Origin: Roseovarius marisflavi
GTDB lineage: Bacteria; Pseudomonadota; Alphaproteobacteria; Rhodobacterales; Rhodobacteraceae
Reading direction: 5' to 3'
DNA: 64,000 bases
Assembly: GCF_900142625.1 (NCBI RefSeq)
Contig: NZ_FRBN01000006.1
Span: 62,001-126,000, forward strand
In this document: one piece after another, positions 35,816 to 42,335 of the stretch
Numbering within the stretch: the stretch's first letter is position 1
Layout of the letters: each line of letters opens with the position of its first letter
Program-made: the position numbers and the translations under genes
The notes under the pieces: model-generated
The model's input: only the letters and a program-made list of their open reading frames with translations
What the model was told of the DNA's origin: nothing
The model's database searches: none

Positions 35816-37051
35816 ATGGACCAGCCGGACCGCGAGGTCGAGCCACAGTTTTCACATCCCGTACGCCAGATCGTGCTTATGCTGCTCGTTCTGGCGCTGA
35901 CGGGGCTTGGCGCCTTTGTCGCCTTGCCGCGGGTCTTGCCGGTGTTTCAGGCCAATCCCTGGCTGAACGGGTTTATCCTTTTGGTGTTTTTCATCGGGGT
36001 TGTGGCCTGTTTCTGGCAGGTGTTTCAGCTGATCGGCTCGGCGCGGTGGATCGAGGGCTTTGTTGCCCGGACGCCGGGGCATGAGCTAACCAAGCCGCCG
36101 CAATTGCTGGCGCCGCTGGCAACGATGTTGCGCGCGCGCGGCAAGCGGATGCAGATCGCCTCGACCTCGGCGCGCTCGATCCTTGATTCCGTGGCACAGC
36201 GGATCGACGAGGTGCGTGATATCACGCGCTATATCGTCAACATGCTGATTTTCCTGGGCCTTTTGGGCACCTTCTATGGTCTGGCAACGACCGTTCCGGC
36301 GGTGGTCGATACCATCCGAAGCCTCGCGCCGCAAAATGGCGAAGGCGGGGTCGAGGTGTTCAACCGCCTGATGACCGGGCTTGAGGCCCAGTTGGGCGGC
36401 ATGGGTGTGGCGTTTTCCTCGTCGCTTCTGGGCCTTGCGGGATCGCTTGTCGTGGGGTTGTTGGAGCTGTTCGCAGGCCACGGTCAGAACCGGTTTTACC
36501 GCGAGCTTGAGGAATGGATGTCGACGATCACCCGCGTTGGCTTTGCCAGTGGCGAGGGCGAGGGCGGCGGCGAAACCGATGCGATGACCCATGTGCTTGA
36601 CCATATGGCCGATCAGATGGACAGCTTGCAGGCCGTCATCACCCAATCGGATGTCAGCCGCGCCATGGTCGATCAAAAGCTTGGCGTGCTGGCGGATTCA
36701 ATTGAGCGGCTGACCCATCGGATGAGCGACAGCAACCCGGTGCAAAGCGCGCTCATGCGGATGGCCGAGGGGCAAGAGCGCCTGATCCAGACCCTGGAAA
36801 ACCGCGAGACCGGGGCCAACGAGGGGCTTGATGCCGAAAGCCGGATGCGGCTTCGCTCGATCGACGTACAGATGTTGCGCATCCTGGAAGAGATAAGCGC
36901 CGGACGCCAGGAGACCATGACCGAGCTGCGCACCGATCTCGCCGCCCTGGCGCGGGTGCTCAATCAGGGGCGCCCCGCTCCCGAGCGGCGCTCGCGGCCC
37001 TTCGTGACGCCGCTCAATCCGCTCAATCCGGACAAGACCGGGGAGAGCTGA
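35816..37051 (+). CDS. MotA/TolQ/ExbB-like proton channel subunit (ZorA-like)
   Basis: Inner-membrane protein of 411 residues. Hydrophobic segments lie at about 18-38, 50-71, 139-160 and 195-220. Segments 3 and 4 carry the MotA_ExbB signature, FLGLLGTFYGLATTVPAVVD and GMGVAFSSSLLGLAGSLVVG. A charged helical tail (about 225-411) follows, predicted cytoplasmic. It is two bases upstream of a MotB-like gene, so the pair probably forms a 5:2 ion-driven complex. It is not MotA of the flagellum (no flagellar genes nearby) and not TolQ (no tolRAB). Biological task unknown. Confidence 0.87.
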   Translation: MDQPDREVEPQFSHPVRQIVLMLLVLALTGLGAFVALPRVLPVFQANPWLNGFILLVFFIGVVACFWQVFQLIGSARWIEGFVARTPGHELTKPPQLLAPLATMLRARGKRMQIASTSARSILDSVAQRIDEVRDITRYIVNMLIFLGLLGTFYGLATTVPAVVDTIRSLAPQNGEGGVEVFNRLMTGLEAQLGGMGVAFSSSLLGLAGSLVVGLLELFAGHGQNRFYRELEEWMSTITRVGFASGEGEGGGETDAMTHVLDHMADQMDSLQAVITQSDVSRAMVDQKLGVLADSIERLTHRMSDSNPVQSALMRMAEGQERLIQTLENRETGANEGLDAESRMRLRSIDVQMLRILEEISAGRQETMTELRTDLAALARVLNQGRPAPERRSRPFVTPLNPLNPDKTGES

Positions 37052-37053
37052 GC

Positions 37054-39012
37054 ATGGGCCTGTCACGGCGTAGCGGAGCACGGTTTCAAGGCTCGATCTG
37101 GCCAGGATTTGTCGATGCGATGACCGGTCTTTTGCTGGTTCTGATGTTCGTGCTTACCATCTTCATGGTGGTGCAATTTGTCTTGCGTGAAGAGATCAGC
37201 GGTCAGGCCACCAAGCTTGACGCGCTTGGCGCCGAGGTGGCGGCGCTGTCGCGCGCGCTTGGGCTTGAGCGGGATCGCAGCACCGATTTGCAGGATCGTG
37301 TTGGCACTTTGACGGCGACCTTGGGCGAGGCGCGCGCAGAGCAACAGGAACAGGCGGCCCTGATCGATACCCTGCGTGCGCAAACGGCGGCCCAGACCGC
37401 AGCACTTGGCAAGGCGCAGACCCGGATCGCCAGCTTTGAAGAACAGGTCGCGGGCCTGTTGTCAGAGCGCGAGCGCGCAGAGGGACAGATTGCCGATCTT
37501 GAGGGCGAACGCGACACGCTTTTGTCCGAACAGGAGACATTGCAACTGGCGCTGGCGGGCTTGCGCAACGAGGTTGATTCACAGGCCGAGGCCGCGCGCC
37601 TTGCCGCCGCGCGCCGCGAGGCGCTTGAGGCCCTTGCAGAGGATTTGCGCCGCCAGAATGCCGAAACCGAGGCGGCGCTTGGCCAAGAGGTGGCCGCGCT
37701 GGAGGCAGAGCTGAGCGAGCAGGAACAGACCCGTCTGGCCGAGGCCGCCGCCGCAGAGGCCCTGCGCGCGCGGCTGACGGGGGCGCAGGCCGAGCTGACC
37801 TCGATGACGCTGGCGCTTGAAGCACAGCGCAAGCGGGCCGAGGAAACGCTGACCCTGTTGGCCGCTGCCGAGGATGCGCGCGCGGATATGGACACCCAAC
37901 TGGTCGCCGCCCTTTTGGCGCAAGACGAGGTGGCCACGCGCCTTGAGGGCCGCGAGACCACGCTTGCCGCGAAAGATGCAGAGATCGCCGGTTTGAAGAC
38001 TGAACTGGCCGAGGCTCGAAGCGGGCAGGCCGAGGTTAGCGATACCCTCGGAGCAACGCAGGACGACCTTGCGCGCGCAGAGGCAAGGGTGAGCGAGCTT
38101 GAACAGGCCTTGGCCCGCGCCCTGGCCGAGGTTGAGGCGGCCAAAGGCGAGGCGATGGATGCCGATGAGGTGCGCCGACAATTGACGGCGGCGCTTGCCG
38201 CCAAGCTTGCGGCGCAAAATCAGGCCGAGGCGCAGATGAGCACCGCCGAAGAGCGCGCCACTCTGTTGGCCGAGGCGCGCCGCCGTCTGGCGGATCAGCA
38301 AGAGCTGGCCACTGAGGCGCAAAAGCAACAGGCCCTTCTCAACCAACAGGTTGCCGCTCTGCGCCAGCAGCTTTCGGGGATTCAGGCGCTTTTGGATGAT
38401 GCCAAGGTGCGCGAGGCCGCAAGCGAGGTTCAGCTTCAATCGCTTGGCAACGAGTTGAATACCGCATTGGCCCGCGTCGCCGCAGAAGAACGCCGCCGTC
38501 GCCTGCTTGAAGAAGAAAAGCTTCGCCTTGCCGAGGCCGAAAAAGAGAATCTTGAAAAATACCGCTCCGAGTTTTTCGGGCGCCTGCGCGATTTGCTGGG
38601 CCAGCAAGAGGGCGTGCGCATCGTCGGGGATCGGTTCGTGTTCTCGTCAGAGGTTTTGTTTGCGCCCGGCGAAGCGCGGTTGTCGCCTGCCGGGGCGGGA
38701 GAGATTGCCAAGGTGGCGGGCATCCTGCGCAATGTGACCAATGACATCCCCGAGGGCATCGACTGGGTGCTTCAGGTCGATGGGCATACCGATAACGTGC
38801 CGCTGATCGGTGGCGCGCAATTTGCCGACAACTGGGAGTTAAGCCAGGCGCGCGCGCTTTCGGTGGTGCGCTATCTGGTGGGCGCGCTCGGCTTTCCGCC
38901 GGATCGCTTGTCGGCCAACGGCTTTGGGGAATATCAGCCGATCAATCCCGCCGATACCCCAGAGGCCCGCGCCCAGAACCGGCGGATCGAACTCAAGCTG
39001 ACCGGGAAATAG
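37054..39012 (+). CDS. MotB/ZorB-like protein with giant coiled coil and OmpA-like domain
   Basis: Partner of the upstream channel gene, 652 residues. A short basic cytoplasmic start is followed by one membrane helix (about 19-44) with the conserved ion-binding aspartate at position 21 (WPGFVDAMTGLLLVLMF), as in MotB and ZorB. Residues of about 46-515 are almost purely Ala/Glu/Leu/Gln/Arg heptads, predicting a very long coiled coil. The last 130 residues form an OmpA/MotB peptidoglycan-binding domain (LQVDGHTDNVP, NWELSQARALSVV, NRRIELKL). Topology puts the coiled coil and OmpA domain in the periplasm. Confidence 0.87.
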   Translation: MGLSRRSGARFQGSIWPGFVDAMTGLLLVLMFVLTIFMVVQFVLREEISGQATKLDALGAEVAALSRALGLERDRSTDLQDRVGTLTATLGEARAEQQEQAALIDTLRAQTAAQTAALGKAQTRIASFEEQVAGLLSERERAEGQIADLEGERDTLLSEQETLQLALAGLRNEVDSQAEAARLAAARREALEALAEDLRRQNAETEAALGQEVAALEAELSEQEQTRLAEAAAAEALRARLTGAQAELTSMTLALEAQRKRAEETLTLLAAAEDARADMDTQLVAALLAQDEVATRLEGRETTLAAKDAEIAGLKTELAEARSGQAEVSDTLGATQDDLARAEARVSELEQALARALAEVEAAKGEAMDADEVRRQLTAALAAKLAAQNQAEAQMSTAEERATLLAEARRRLADQQELATEAQKQQALLNQQVAALRQQLSGIQALLDDAKVREAASEVQLQSLGNELNTALARVAAEERRRRLLEEEKLRLAEAEKENLEKYRSEFFGRLRDLLGQQEGVRIVGDRFVFSSEVLFAPGEARLSPAGAGEIAKVAGILRNVTNDIPEGIDWVLQVDGHTDNVPLIGGAQFADNWELSQARALSVVRYLVGALGFPPDRLSANGFGEYQPINPADTPEARAQNRRIELKLTGK

Positions 39013-39024
39013 GTCGGCGGGGTT

Positions 39025-39999
39025 TCAGGGCGCGACGGTGATATCCGCATGGCGCAGCGCCAGCACCTCTTGGTCGCGTTGCAGGCGGACATAGCCGCGA
39101 TAGGCCCCGGCGGGCCAGCCCGCAGCGGGGGCCTTGCGGCCAAAGGCGCGGAAAAGCTGGGCCTGTGGATCGTCAAGCGTGATGTCCTGACGAAAGATTT
39201 GACCCTCCGGGCCCTGGGCCGTAAAGATAAGCTGATCGCCGGGTTCTGCGTAAAACGCATGACCATAAAGCACCAGCGGTTGATCGGGCCTGGCCGTCGC
39301 CGCGCGCGCGGCGCCGGATTTCACGGCGTCAAAGCCGGGCACCGTGGTTGAAAACCCGGCCGTAAACAGCCCCGCGCGATGATAGGCAAGCACGCTGTCC
39401 CAAAGGCCGGTGCCGCTCGCCGTGCCACAGGTATTGCGATCCTCGGGGTTGAACGGGTCGATAACCTTGCCATCCTTGAGCATGCCGATATGGACATGGG
39501 GCACATTGGTCAGACCGCTTAACCCGACCTCACCAAGAACCGCGCCGCGCTCAAGCTGATCGCCTTTGCGCACCTGAACAGAGCCGCTCTTCATGTGACA
39601 GTAAAGGGTTTGCCAGCCGTCCCCGTGATCAATGCGCACGGCATTGCCGCATTCGCGGCCCTTGATGCTGTCTCGGGTGGCGGGGGTAACGGGTTGGTCG
39701 GGAACACCGTCACGGGTTGCGGCCACCACGCCGGGGGCGGCGGCAAGAACGTCAACACCAGCGGTCATCGCGTCAAAGGATAACAGCACGATATCGGTGC
39801 CGCGGTGGGCATCGCGGCTTTTGAGGCCGCACATGAAATCGCGCTTTCCGGGGCCGGGATCGGCGTCGACATAATCTTCGACATAACAGGTTTTGCCGGG
39901 CTCACAGTCAATCGGAAGGCTAAGCCGTGGCGCGTCTGCGGCGGCCACTGGGGCCGCCGCAAGTATCAGTGTGGCAAGGGCAAAGGCCGTTCGCGTCAT
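39025..39999 (-). CDS. M23 family metallopeptidase
   Basis: Predicted secreted peptidoglycan endopeptidase of 324 residues with a signal peptide ending near APVAAADA. LytM zinc ligands are present: HRGTDI (HxxxD) near residue 66 and the HVHIG motif near 170. A C-terminal beta domain of about 110 residues follows. Its ATG overlaps the clpA stop (TGATG), so the two are co-transcribed. It converges with the MotB-like gene 12 bases away. Confidence 0.88.
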   Translation of the reverse strand: MTRTAFALATLILAAAPVAAADAPRLSLPIDCEPGKTCYVEDYVDADPGPGKRDFMCGLKSRDAHRGTDIVLLSFDAMTAGVDVLAAAPGVVAATRDGVPDQPVTPATRDSIKGRECGNAVRIDHGDGWQTLYCHMKSGSVQVRKGDQLERGAVLGEVGLSGLTNVPHVHIGMLKDGKVIDPFNPEDRNTCGTASGTGLWDSVLAYHRAGLFTAGFSTTVPGFDAVKSGAARAATARPDQPLVLYGHAFYAEPGDQLIFTAQGPEGQIFRQDITLDDPQAQLFRAFGRKAPAAGWPAGAYRGYVRLQRDQEVLALRHADITVAP

Positions 40000-42335
40000 C
40001 ACTCAGCGGTGAGCAGCGGCGGCTTTTTCTTGCCCGAAAGGCGGCGCGCCACTGGGCCTTCGACCTCGAGGTCGATCTTGCCATCCTTGACGCCAACCTT
40101 GACCACGCCACCCTTGGCGAGCTTGCCGAACAAAAGCTCCTCGGCCAGCGGCTTTTTGATGTGTTCCTGAATGACACGGCCAAGCGGGCGGGCGCCCATC
40201 TTGTCGTCATAGCCACGATCCGCAAGCCAGGCGGCCGCAGGTTCGGTCAACTCGATGGTCACGTCACGATCCATAAGTTGTGCCTCAAGCTGAAGCACGA
40301 ACTTCTCGACCACTTTCAGGATCACCTCTTTGGGCAGGGCGCCAAAGGAAATCACCGCATCAAGCCGGTTGCGGAATTCCGGCGTGAAGGTGCGCTCGAT
40401 CGCGGCGGTGTCTTCACCTTCGCGGCGGTCGCGGCCAAAGCCAACAGCCGATTTCGCCTGTTCAGAGGCCCCGGCGTTCGAGGTCATGATCAGGACCACG
40501 TTGCGGAAATCAACGGTGCGGCCGTTGTGATCGGTCAGCGTGCCGTGATCCATGACCTGAAGCAGGATGTTGAACACATCGGGGTGCGCTTTTTCGATCT
40601 CATCCAGCAGCAGCACACAATGCGGGTGCTGATCGACGCCATCGGTCAAAAGCCCGCCCTGATCAAAGCCGACATAGCCCGGAGGCGCACCGATCAGGCG
40701 AGAGACCGCGTGCTTTTCCATGTACTCGGACATGTCAAAGCGGAGCAATTCCACACCAAGCGAATCTGCAAGCTGTTTGGCGACCTCGGTCTTGCCCACG
40801 CCGGTGGGACCAGCAAAGAGATAGTTGCCAATCGGTTTTTCCGGCTCGCGCAGACCTGCACGCGACAGCTTGATCGCCGACGCGAGCGCCTCAATCGCAG
40901 TATCCTGACCAAACACGACGCGCTTGAGACCGGCTTCGAGATCCTTGAGAACCTCGGCGTCGTTCTTGCTGACGTTCTTGGGCGGGATGCGGGCGATTTT
41001 CGCGACCACGTCCTCGATCTCTTTCACGCCGATGCTCTTGCGGCGTTTTGAGGCGGCCAGAAGATGTTGCGCGGCACCGGCTTCGTCGATGACGTCAATC
41101 GCCTTATCGGGCAACTTGCGGTCATTGATATAGCGCGCCGACAAATCCACCGCAGAGCGGATGGCGTCATTGGTGTATTTGACGCTGTGATGATCCTCGA
41201 AATAAGGCTTCAACCCTTTGAGGATTTTCACCGCATCCTCAACGGTCGGCTCGGCCACGTCGATTTTCTGGAAGCGACGCGCGAGGGCGCGGTCCTTTTC
41301 GAAATGCTGGCGGAATTCCTTGAAGGTGGTCGAGCCCATGCAGCGAAGCTTGCCGCCCTGCAAGGCCGGCTTGAGCAGGTTCGAGGCATCCATCGCGCCG
41401 CCAGATGTGGCGCCGGCACCGATCACGGTGTGGATTTCGTCGATGAACAAAACCGCGTCGGGGTGTTTTTCCAACTCGGTCACCACCGCCTTGAGCCGCT
41501 CTTCAAAGTCGCCGCGATAGCGGGTTCCGGCCAGAAGCGCGCCCATATCGAGCGAAAAGATGGTCGTTTTCGAGAGAACTTCGGGGGTTTCGCCCATGAT
41601 GATCTTGTGCGCGAGGCCCTCGGCGATGGCGGTTTTGCCAACACCGGGATCGCCCACCAGAAGCGGGTTGTTCTTGCGGCGGCGACACAACACCTGAATG
41701 CAGCGCTCAACCTCTGAATCGCGGCCGATCAGCGGGTCGATATCGCCCGAACGCGCCTTTTCATTAAGGTCGACACAGTATTTCGCAAGTGCGGATTCAC
41801 CGGCCTCGACCGCGTCGGATTCGCCATGGGTCTTGGCGCCCTCGTCATCAAGGTTGCTGGCCCCGCTCAGCGGGCGCGATTCGCCGTATGCCGGATCCTT
41901 GGCAACGCCGTGGGCGATGAAATTCACCGCATCATAGCGCGTCATATCCTGTTCCTGCAGGAAATAGGCGGCGTTGGATTCACGTTCGGCAAAGATCGCG
42001 ACCAGAACATTGGCCCCGGTCACCTCGGTCCGCCCCGAGGATTGTACATGGATCGCGGCGCGTTGGATGACGCGCTGGAAGGCGGCGGTCGGCACCGCCT
42101 CTGATCCGTCGATATCGGTCACCAGATTGGCAAGGTCGTCGTCGATGAATTCCACCAGGGTGGTGCGCAATTCTTCGGTGTCGACACTACAGGCCTTCAT
42201 CACGCGCGACGCGTCGGGCTCGTCCACAAGGGCGAGCAGCAGGTGTTCCAATGTGGCAAACTCATGCTGGCGCGCGTTGGCCAGGGCCAAAGCGGCATGG
42301 ATTGCTTGTTCCAGCGTGGTCGAGAATGAAGGCAC
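39999..42335 (-). CDS. clpA: ATP-dependent Clp protease ATP-binding subunit ClpA
   Basis: AAA+ unfoldase that feeds ClpP, 778 residues. The N domain that binds ClpS and substrates (about 1-145) precedes two ATPase modules, with Walker [16 protein letters not shown] and [15 protein letters not shown] and Walker B LFIDEIH and [12 protein letters not shown]. The GTG start at 42335 follows AAGGAG; a frame to 42374 has no support. clpS is usually upstream in related genomes but is absent here. Confidence 0.96.

Follow-up and report, generated by a model that had tools for sequence, protein, structure and literature searches.

How would a bacterial cell use an ion-driven membrane motor whose wall-binding subunit carries a coiled coil far longer than the periplasm is wide? 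The question is raised by two adjacent genes in a stretch of 64,000 nucleotides from the genome of Roseovarius marisflavi (contig NZ_FRBN01000006.1, positions 62,001 to 126,000; the whole stretch is referred to as the window, and positions below are counted from its first letter). The first gene, A, is an open reading frame on the plus strand at 35816-37051 with an ATG start, encoding 411 amino acids (aa), and the second, B, encodes 652 aa at 37054-39012 on the same strand, also with an ATG start and with only 2 bp from the stop of A to the start of B. An initial annotation of the window, made from its letters alone, had reported both reading frames at these positions and read them as an ion-driven pair of the MotAB or ZorAB kind. 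Both points held, as hidden Markov models (HMMs) of ZorA match 43 of 43 A core sequences and B contains an Asp-bearing helix together with an OmpA-type domain; overall the observation was confirmed and its interpretation partly supported. Our own reading, to which we give about an even chance, is that A and B form a chromosomal ion-driven motor with a continuous parallel tether to the cell wall, engaged in envelope or cell-separation work.

The wall-binding subunit B and its rod

B is a full-length member of the PRK09039 family, its residues 1-651 aligning to positions 1-626 of the model NCBIfam NF006542 with 817 bits against an equivalog cut-off of 388. A single N-terminal membrane helix covers about residues 17-41 (37102-37176, limits set by reading the sequence), and at its start the motif WPGFVD holds the predicted ion-binding residue Asp21 (codon 37114-37116). 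This residue had been singled out in the initial annotation, and its column is Asp in 157 of 159 aligned B sequences, a count taken from the alignment as the regular expression for the N-terminal anchor itself demands an Asp. The C-terminal part is an OmpA/MotB-type peptidoglycan-binding domain (residues 535-643, 38656-38982; Pfam PF00691, 64.5 bits) in which G577-H578, L596-S597, R600 and R643-R644 are invariant among 31 sequences. The last 159 residues match MotB of PDB entry 3khn, the best PDB match, with an E-value of 1.2e-18, and the wall-binding and defence residues described for ZorB have, by motif, invariant counterparts in B (PMC11890865; this and the other articles cited by number were available in part, and statements on them refer to those parts).

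Between the two ends lies a coil from about residue 45 to 515, some 460 residues, with no proline between residues 17 and 538 and a hydrophobic period of 3.50 residues (power 25.8, the maximum in 500 shuffles being 12.1). When aligned with its relatives it falls into three parts, all read on the plus strand: a proximal rod (residues 45-280, 37186-37893), conserved in an alignment of 43 family sequences and holding the motif MTLALE at 251-256, a hypervariable segment (residues 281-395, 37894-38238), and a distal rod (residues 396-515, 38239-38598), conserved in the alignments and carrying YRSEFF at 503-508. Most length differences lie in the hypervariable segment, where occupancy in the 43 sequences is 0.38-0.68 over residues 281-380 and 0.86 at 381-400. 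A straight helix of 455 residues at 0.1485 nm each would measure 67.6 nm, which agrees with the 70 nm first estimated and is too long to stand across the periplasm. Because it is far longer than the periplasm is wide, the rod would have to run along the envelope, presumably as a long-reach, torsionally compliant tether.

The length of the rod varies widely between orthologues. From the Asp to YRSEFF the distance ranges from 144 to 2,193 residues in 93 orthologues, about fifteen-fold, and by another measure the coil proper spans 140 to 2,166 residues in 81 orthologues (16 of 97 having been dropped for a missing motif), 78 of which are proline-free in this region. In 39 loci of one family B itself measures 435 to 2,363 aa. 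The family name PRK09039, 'peptidoglycan -binding protein', covers five models, NCBIfam NF006542-NF006546, of 627 aa and of 342-350 aa, so that this freedom of length is already implicit in the model sizes. The longest B (L134:1722-8813) has 2,363 aa and a proline-free coil of 2,166 residues beside an ordinary A, and by the same arithmetic the longest rod exceeds 300 nm. Above a minimum of roughly 17-21 nm rod length would thus be nearly free, and a role as a ruler of fixed length was rejected as lengths vary so widely between orthologues. Growth by recent internal duplication was likewise discarded, self-BLAST of five rods giving nothing at 1e-6.

When the Asp-to-YRSEFF lengths were compared modulo 7, 56 of 93 rods fell in one residue class (67 distinct lengths, p=1.9e-14), 24 of the remaining 37 sat 3 or 4 residues off the main phase, which are the stammer and stutter classes, and no signal was found at moduli 5, 6 or 8-13. 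In this first set 7 of 100 B sequences without an anchor were dropped, or 17 of 100 under a stricter regular expression. Disjoint nearest pairs were compared to lessen the effects of kinship, and among all 154 usable rods 26 of 59 disjoint unequal pairs differ by a multiple of seven (p=3.3e-8). Only 7 of these 26 differences are multiples of 14, which gives no hint that the two arms of a hairpin change together. For a second sample of 60 new loci, 59 with B and 54 with both anchors, the phase was predicted before the sequences were fetched; 35 of the 54 rods had the predicted phase, most of them having one recurring length (174), and among distinct lengths 9 of 24 were in phase (p=0.004). Pooling both samples gave 86 distinct lengths and p=7e-13. 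In a set of seven named loci six rods were in phase, of which three share one length, and the B of an Acidocella lacked an anchor.

The proximal rod gave the clearest result. The distance from Asp21 to MTLALE keeps to a single heptad phase in 25 of the 27 family members left after 16 of 43 sequences were dropped, and 13 of 14 later sequences replicated this. The window is itself an exception, its distance of 230 being shifted by a stutter at residue 208. A heptad model built from 36,485 coil residues places one discontinuity per 255 residues, 128 of 143 being of the 3/4 type, and in the rod of the window it finds two, at residues 208 and 402, which cancel each other. Both the proximal rod and the short rods show strong quantisation, which becomes blurred in the variable middle (residues 281-395); stutters are proposed here as the explanation of the blurring. 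Replication of the heptad steps is therefore mixed, negative for whole-rod lengths and positive for the proximal rod. That lengths often change in seven-residue steps suggests, at the level of sequence, an unbroken rod able to carry force or signal.

To see how two strands might be arranged, charge pairs were counted for a parallel in-register dimer, in which position g faces the following e' (i, i+5), and compared with 1000 shuffles. Repulsive g-e' pairs numbered 179 against 359.5 in shuffled sequences for the family of the window, 74 against 161.6 for other families and 127 against 235 for the long rods, a level that none of 1000 shuffles reached in any of the three cases, and repulsive pairs were not depleted in the b-g and e-c controls. 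The signature of a parallel two-stranded coiled coil, made up of g-e' charges and heptad continuity, is found in the family and in other families, but is not significant for the window taken by itself.

Several results have to be set against a straight parallel rod. Attractive pairs are enriched for g-e' but also, less so, in some of the controls, which leaves the loss of repulsive pairs as the sole specific sign; the shuffle tests are uncorrected for kinship; and the window taken by itself, which is too short to show the signal, has 5 repulsive g-e' pairs against 7.5, a value reached in 166 of 1000 shuffles and not significant. The second sample contributed 17 rod lengths absent from the first, and just 3 of them are in the main phase (p=0.45); nor is a whole-rod phase seen in the 15 sequences with rods above 560 residues (p=0.66). 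Finally, AlphaFold2 draws the B monomer as three helices, at residues 17-170, 177-330 and 336-515, with breaks at 171-176 and 331-335.

This model comes close to a compact antiparallel arrangement, which the initial annotation had named as an outcome that would undo its proposal. With helices of about 23-27 nm each by arithmetic, the coil would fold back into a bundle fitting a normal periplasm and the giant rod would not exist. The model is, however, that of a monomer, with a predicted local distance difference test (pLDDT) of 44 at the first loop and a predicted template modelling score of 0.34, and the heptad register runs unbroken through both predicted loops, which makes folding back unlikely. 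Against it also speak the Asp21-to-MTLALE distance, which spans the first loop and keeps one phase in 38 of 41 usable sequences (the window, with its stutter at 208, excepted), the 19 repulsive g-e' pairs in that region against 57.5 expected, and the occurrence of single-heptad steps and not just of steps of 14. From the continuity of the register and the phase of this distance the rod is taken to be straight and parallel, and about 68 nm long in the window.

The channel subunit A

For A, AlphaFold2 predicts two N-terminal and two core membrane helices, probably four in all, followed by a helical tail (mean pLDDT 82, mostly above 90 in the core and lower in the tail). The core helix pair comprises residues 137-214 (36224-36457), in which G148-L149-x-G151-T152-F153-x-G155-L156 and S203 are invariant in an alignment of 55 sequences. 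The tail, residues 252-385 (36569-36970), is presumed to be cytoplasmic and was delimited from the model, here of low to medium confidence, from the alignment and from its periodicity of 3.53 (557 sequence windows). The initial annotation had assigned the long element to B rather than to A, which stands: A tails measure 63-213 aa (median 158 in 93 homologues) as against 675-1015 aa for whole A proteins of the ZorA3 type. It is to be corrected in that A too has a helical tail, at about residues 252-385, which resembles that of ZorA but is shorter. From residue 346 the tip of the tail is conserved among the 55 sequences as LRSIDxQxLRxLEExxxGR and may be a candidate partner-binding site. Residues 332-385 (36809-36970), the tail tip, are kept across the class, an example being LRSIDVQ from residue 346. 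Lengths of A tails and B rods correlate (Spearman 0.41, kinship uncorrected), an observation not used as evidence.

When the A core sequences were searched with family models (E<=1), the PADLOC ZorA models gave the 43 of 43 matches mentioned above (best 2.7e-14), Pfam MotA_ExbB (PF01618) matched 42 (best 2.3e-7) and NCBIfam ZorA_4 38, while the MotA1, TolQ and ExbB models matched only 2, 2 and 1 of the 43. The A of the window scores 12.2 bits with PF01618 (E 0.15), below the cut-off of 22.9, and the HMM libraries used contain no family specific to A. A profile of the A core found nothing in the PDB at E<=1, and the fold was therefore judged from the AlphaFold2 model; matches of a full-length A profile to the PDB were set aside as coiled-coil noise from the tail. 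Aligned with hhalign to the TolQ of its own genome, the core profile gave a probability of 35. In Foldseek the model matched TolQ, ExbB and ZorA with prob 1.00 but with E-values of at least 5.5e-3 (TolQ best), and its VIA Z scores were 11.5 for TolQ/ExbB, 10.4 for ZorA and 9.7 for MotA, an unrelated helical design giving 9.8. Judged by its model, A is read as a divergent channel subunit of the MotA/TolQ/ExbB type, its nearest named relative appearing to be ZorA by HMM and just the MotA/TolQ/ExbB superfamily by fold.

Distribution, neighbourhood and the Zorya alternative

A was found in 188 of 289 genomes drawn evenly across the Alphaproteobacteria (E<=1e-20), about two thirds, and in 161 of the 235 sampled genomes with completeness of 90% or more and contamination of 5% or less, although some of the weakest of the 188 may hold another subfamily. 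The cut-off of the B model is exceeded in 139 of 149 genomes of the family of the window. Loci were fetched around B matches, 60 from the class (three of them in the window's family) and 39 more from the family, one more region being a placeholder, and an A homologue lies beside B in 56 of the 60 and in all 39. Counted by genome, B adjoins A in 95 of the 98. The three genomes without adjacency (G209, G103 and G141) have A elsewhere, and the fourth locus without A, L086, belongs to genome G131, which has an ordinary pair besides this second B; the extra PRK09039-type protein has 450 aa, no WPGFVD helix and no A beside it. The complete genomes G311, G012 and G183 show no A at E<=1 and weak B matches only, as if A and B had been lost jointly. 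The genome of the window has one copy of A.

In a sample of the phylum A matches occur in 162 of 397 genomes (E<=0.001), among them strong ones in a few families that are listed outside the class. Seven genomes listed outside the class (G503, G558, G582, G569, G751, G645 and G786) have strong A homologues with E-values of 1e-91 to 1e-96, and B lies beside A in all five of those fetched (G558, G569, G645, G751 and G786). Either transfer or an older origin would account for the homologues outside the class. In five further loci, L332-L336 (G755, G716, G777, G766 and G637), a different MotA-like subunit of 444-598 aa has a MotB-like partner of 236-276 aa, whose OmpA match is weak at best and which contains a WPG(Y/F)VD helix. 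In four of the five the same gene run also encodes an HlyD-like membrane fusion protein (by Pfam in L332, L334 and L335, by eye in L333), L335 also has a TolC-type protein, and from this gene content these loci look like a secretion-linked ion motor.

The genes around the pair are another matter. In the stretches fetched for 42 family loci ChaC is kept in 40, DUF2125 in 39, ClpA in 32, an extensin-like gene in 29 and an M23 gene in 23, whereas none of the nine neighbours tested was found in 54 loci from other families, in 53 of which A adjoins B. Only the linkage of A to B is general, the remaining synteny being confined to the family of the window. The initial annotation had pointed to co-orientation with cell-wall enzymes; the M23 gene (39025-40002) is on the minus strand, antisense to the pair, and occurs in none of the 54 loci outside the family, and a functional link to the M23 and extensin-like neighbours was rejected for the same lack of synteny.

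The kinship of A with ZorA raises the possibility of a Zorya-like anti-phage system with its effectors elsewhere. Type III Zorya (PADLOC ZorA3/ZorB3) shares gene order, Asp helix and OmpA-type domain with the pair, among named families ZorA comes nearest to A, and the OmpA part of B scores 78.9 bits with ZorB3. For comparison, ten ZorA3-type loci from outside the class (L322-L331) were used; their A proteins measure 675-1015 aa and nine of their B proteins 213-240 aa, while the tenth B, of 444 aa, looks like a start-site artefact. The three A and two B proteins scanned from these loci are PADLOC ZorA3 and ZorB3, and the B partners of type III Zorya match NCBIfam PRK09040. The three ZorA3-type proteins score 815-1574 bits with the best ZorA3 model as against 37.6 bits for the A of the window, and the two B proteins 347-382 bits with ZorB3, well apart from the 78.9 of B, PADLOC giving no cut-off for these models. 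Zorya and the pair are mirror images on the same core, with the long element on A in the former and on B here (411 and 652 aa). The absence of ZorC, ZorD and ZorE claimed in the initial annotation agrees with our scan, in which no Zorya component was found among 10 flanking proteins, the rest of the genome not having been searched for effectors. The single copy in the genome and the neighbourhood kept within the family also speak against defence, which we regard as very improbable. When the two nearest long neighbours were scanned at five of the ZorA3-type loci only L327 had a Zorya partner (ZorG-like), and some of the ten may not be defence systems.

Proposed function

A flagellar stator or a Tol/Exb energiser would be the most familiar use of such a pair, which belongs to the same superfamily and whose almost certain relatives in Komagataeibacter hansenii were published as motA and motB. 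MotAB and PomAB likewise combine a four-helix A with a B that has an Asp helix and an OmpA-type wall domain, but with a short linker in the place of the rod. TolQ and ExbB, the best structural matches of the A model, have three helices (PMC6570709) and a TolR or ExbD partner, whereas B has an OmpA-type domain and no Pfam TolR/ExbD match at E<=0.1. No flagellin match was found in the genome of the window, controls being positive in 4 of 14, and a search of the same genome with PF01618 returned TolQ, beside a TolR-like gene at a separate locus, and a FadB-like false match (L002). The pair is therefore, as the proposal of the initial annotation requires, neither the stator of a flagellum nor a part of Tol; provided that the assembly, 99.99% complete, is correct, flagellar identity is refuted for the genome of the window, and Komagataeibacter is stated to lack a flagellum (PMC6570709). 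Of all explanations weighed this is the least probable. The genome (G000) also has no flagellar MotA or ExbB among its PF01618 matches and is apparently non-flagellated. Generic ion transporters (GIT) are likewise non-flagellar A/B pairs with B directly downstream of A, but their B subunits lack the OmpA-type domain present in that of the window, and the available passages of this 2025 MotAB survey do not mention the A/B family (PMC12505986).

Clues to function come from K. hansenii, where Jacek and co-workers in 2019 overexpressed 'motA' (348 aa) and 'motB' (321 aa) and tagged them with green fluorescent protein (GFP). Overexpression of either gene gave elongated, chained cells with septa, and the GFP fusions were polar (PMC6570709). 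The only phenotype met for the family thus concerns the cell pole and the separation of cells, and a role of the pair in the envelope or in cell separation is inferred from it. Seven of nine named genomes searched have one A homologue each (Komagataeibacter melomenusus, Novacetimonas cocois, Gluconacetobacter entanii, G. dulcium, Gluconobacter oxydans, a Phaeobacter and an Acidocella), and the other two genomes, from strains of Acetobacter pasteurianus and Brevundimonas diminuta, gave no A match. In N. cocois, taken as a close relative, A and B have exactly 348 and 321 aa, and in K. melomenusus 348 and 320 aa; by this agreement the K. hansenii proteins are almost certainly members of the A/B family, with a short rod, the distance from Asp to YRSEFF being 153 residues in their relatives compared with 482 in the window.

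On the functional side, too, there are points that count the other way. A C-terminal MotB-GFP fusion would be periplasmic, where GFP often fails to fluoresce. The function is drawn from one overexpression study, to which the family would be linked by the protein lengths of relatives. In addition, motA and motB of K. hansenii had no effect on the cell shape of E. coli (PMC6570709).

In the motor that we propose, A and B would assemble as in the MotAB, TolQR and ZorAB kind, presumably as A5B2 in a 5:2 stoichiometry. Ions moving past Asp21 in the helices of the B dimer would turn the ring of A with its tail relative to B. Its C-terminal domains would hold B on the peptidoglycan, linked to the membrane by a single unbroken coiled coil of two parallel strands in register. 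This coil could carry torque or tension from the wall to the membrane because it shows no swivel, no loop and no proline and tends to change its length by whole heptads. A review has speculated that coiled-coil anchors may limit the torque that 5:2 motors bear (PMC9389320); by analogy an unbroken coil would fit such a torque-limiting anchor and a flexible linker would not.

The same rod might instead sense the wall. Tension or twist passed on from the peptidoglycan would open an ion path or shift the A tail and so signal to the cytoplasm, the linkers in heptad phase acting as signal transmitters, as in phytochrome diguanylate cyclases. The conserved tip of the A tail and the reading of Zorya as a sensor of wall damage (PMC11890865) agree with gating by wall strain. 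The linkers of those cyclases change length by 7 or by the -4 class (PMC9587094), the available part of PMC4350178 giving nothing on length changes, but they belong to a signalling enzyme, whereas the rod of B, with up to 2,166 residues, would be an anchor to the wall in the periplasm and seems long for faithful signalling. Moreover, relatives of the pair are read as rotary motors (PMC9389320, PMC11890865), and across the class no output partner is kept beside it. Strain gating is a possible explanation, clearly less probable than the motor with its wall tether. A sharper form of the motor, which we put forward tentatively, is that B would be a swivel-free torsion tether reaching from 20 to more than 300 nm along the wall, by which a rotary motor winds or pulls distant peptidoglycan. 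It would thereby mirror Zorya, in which the long element extends into the cytoplasm.

The initial annotation had suggested an undescribed machine, a term to be softened as B has a name and the K. hansenii pair has been studied. B belongs to a named but essentially uncharacterised family, and what is new is the structural description of its rod. In what was found under the name PRK09039, which led to papers on a phage genome and on blue light, no function is described, no literature was found on a MotB with a long coiled coil, nor by a channel or transposon-sequencing search, and apart from the Komagataeibacter papers none on the A/B family was recognised in literature listings, whose entries were mostly unopened. 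Hardly any literature was thus found on a pair this widespread.

The pair would be a further ion motor of the housekeeping type besides MotAB and TolQR/ExbBD, in about two thirds of the sampled alphaproteobacterial genomes, and a housekeeping-like relative for Zorya, so that weak ZorA and ZorB matches are to be read with care. Should B be a torsion tether, species would adjust how compliant it is through added heptads, without altering the strength that the coil provides, and a motor would do mechanical work in the envelope tens to hundreds of nm away from its ion channel. The elongated, chained cells published in the context of cellulose engineering would gain a testable mechanism.

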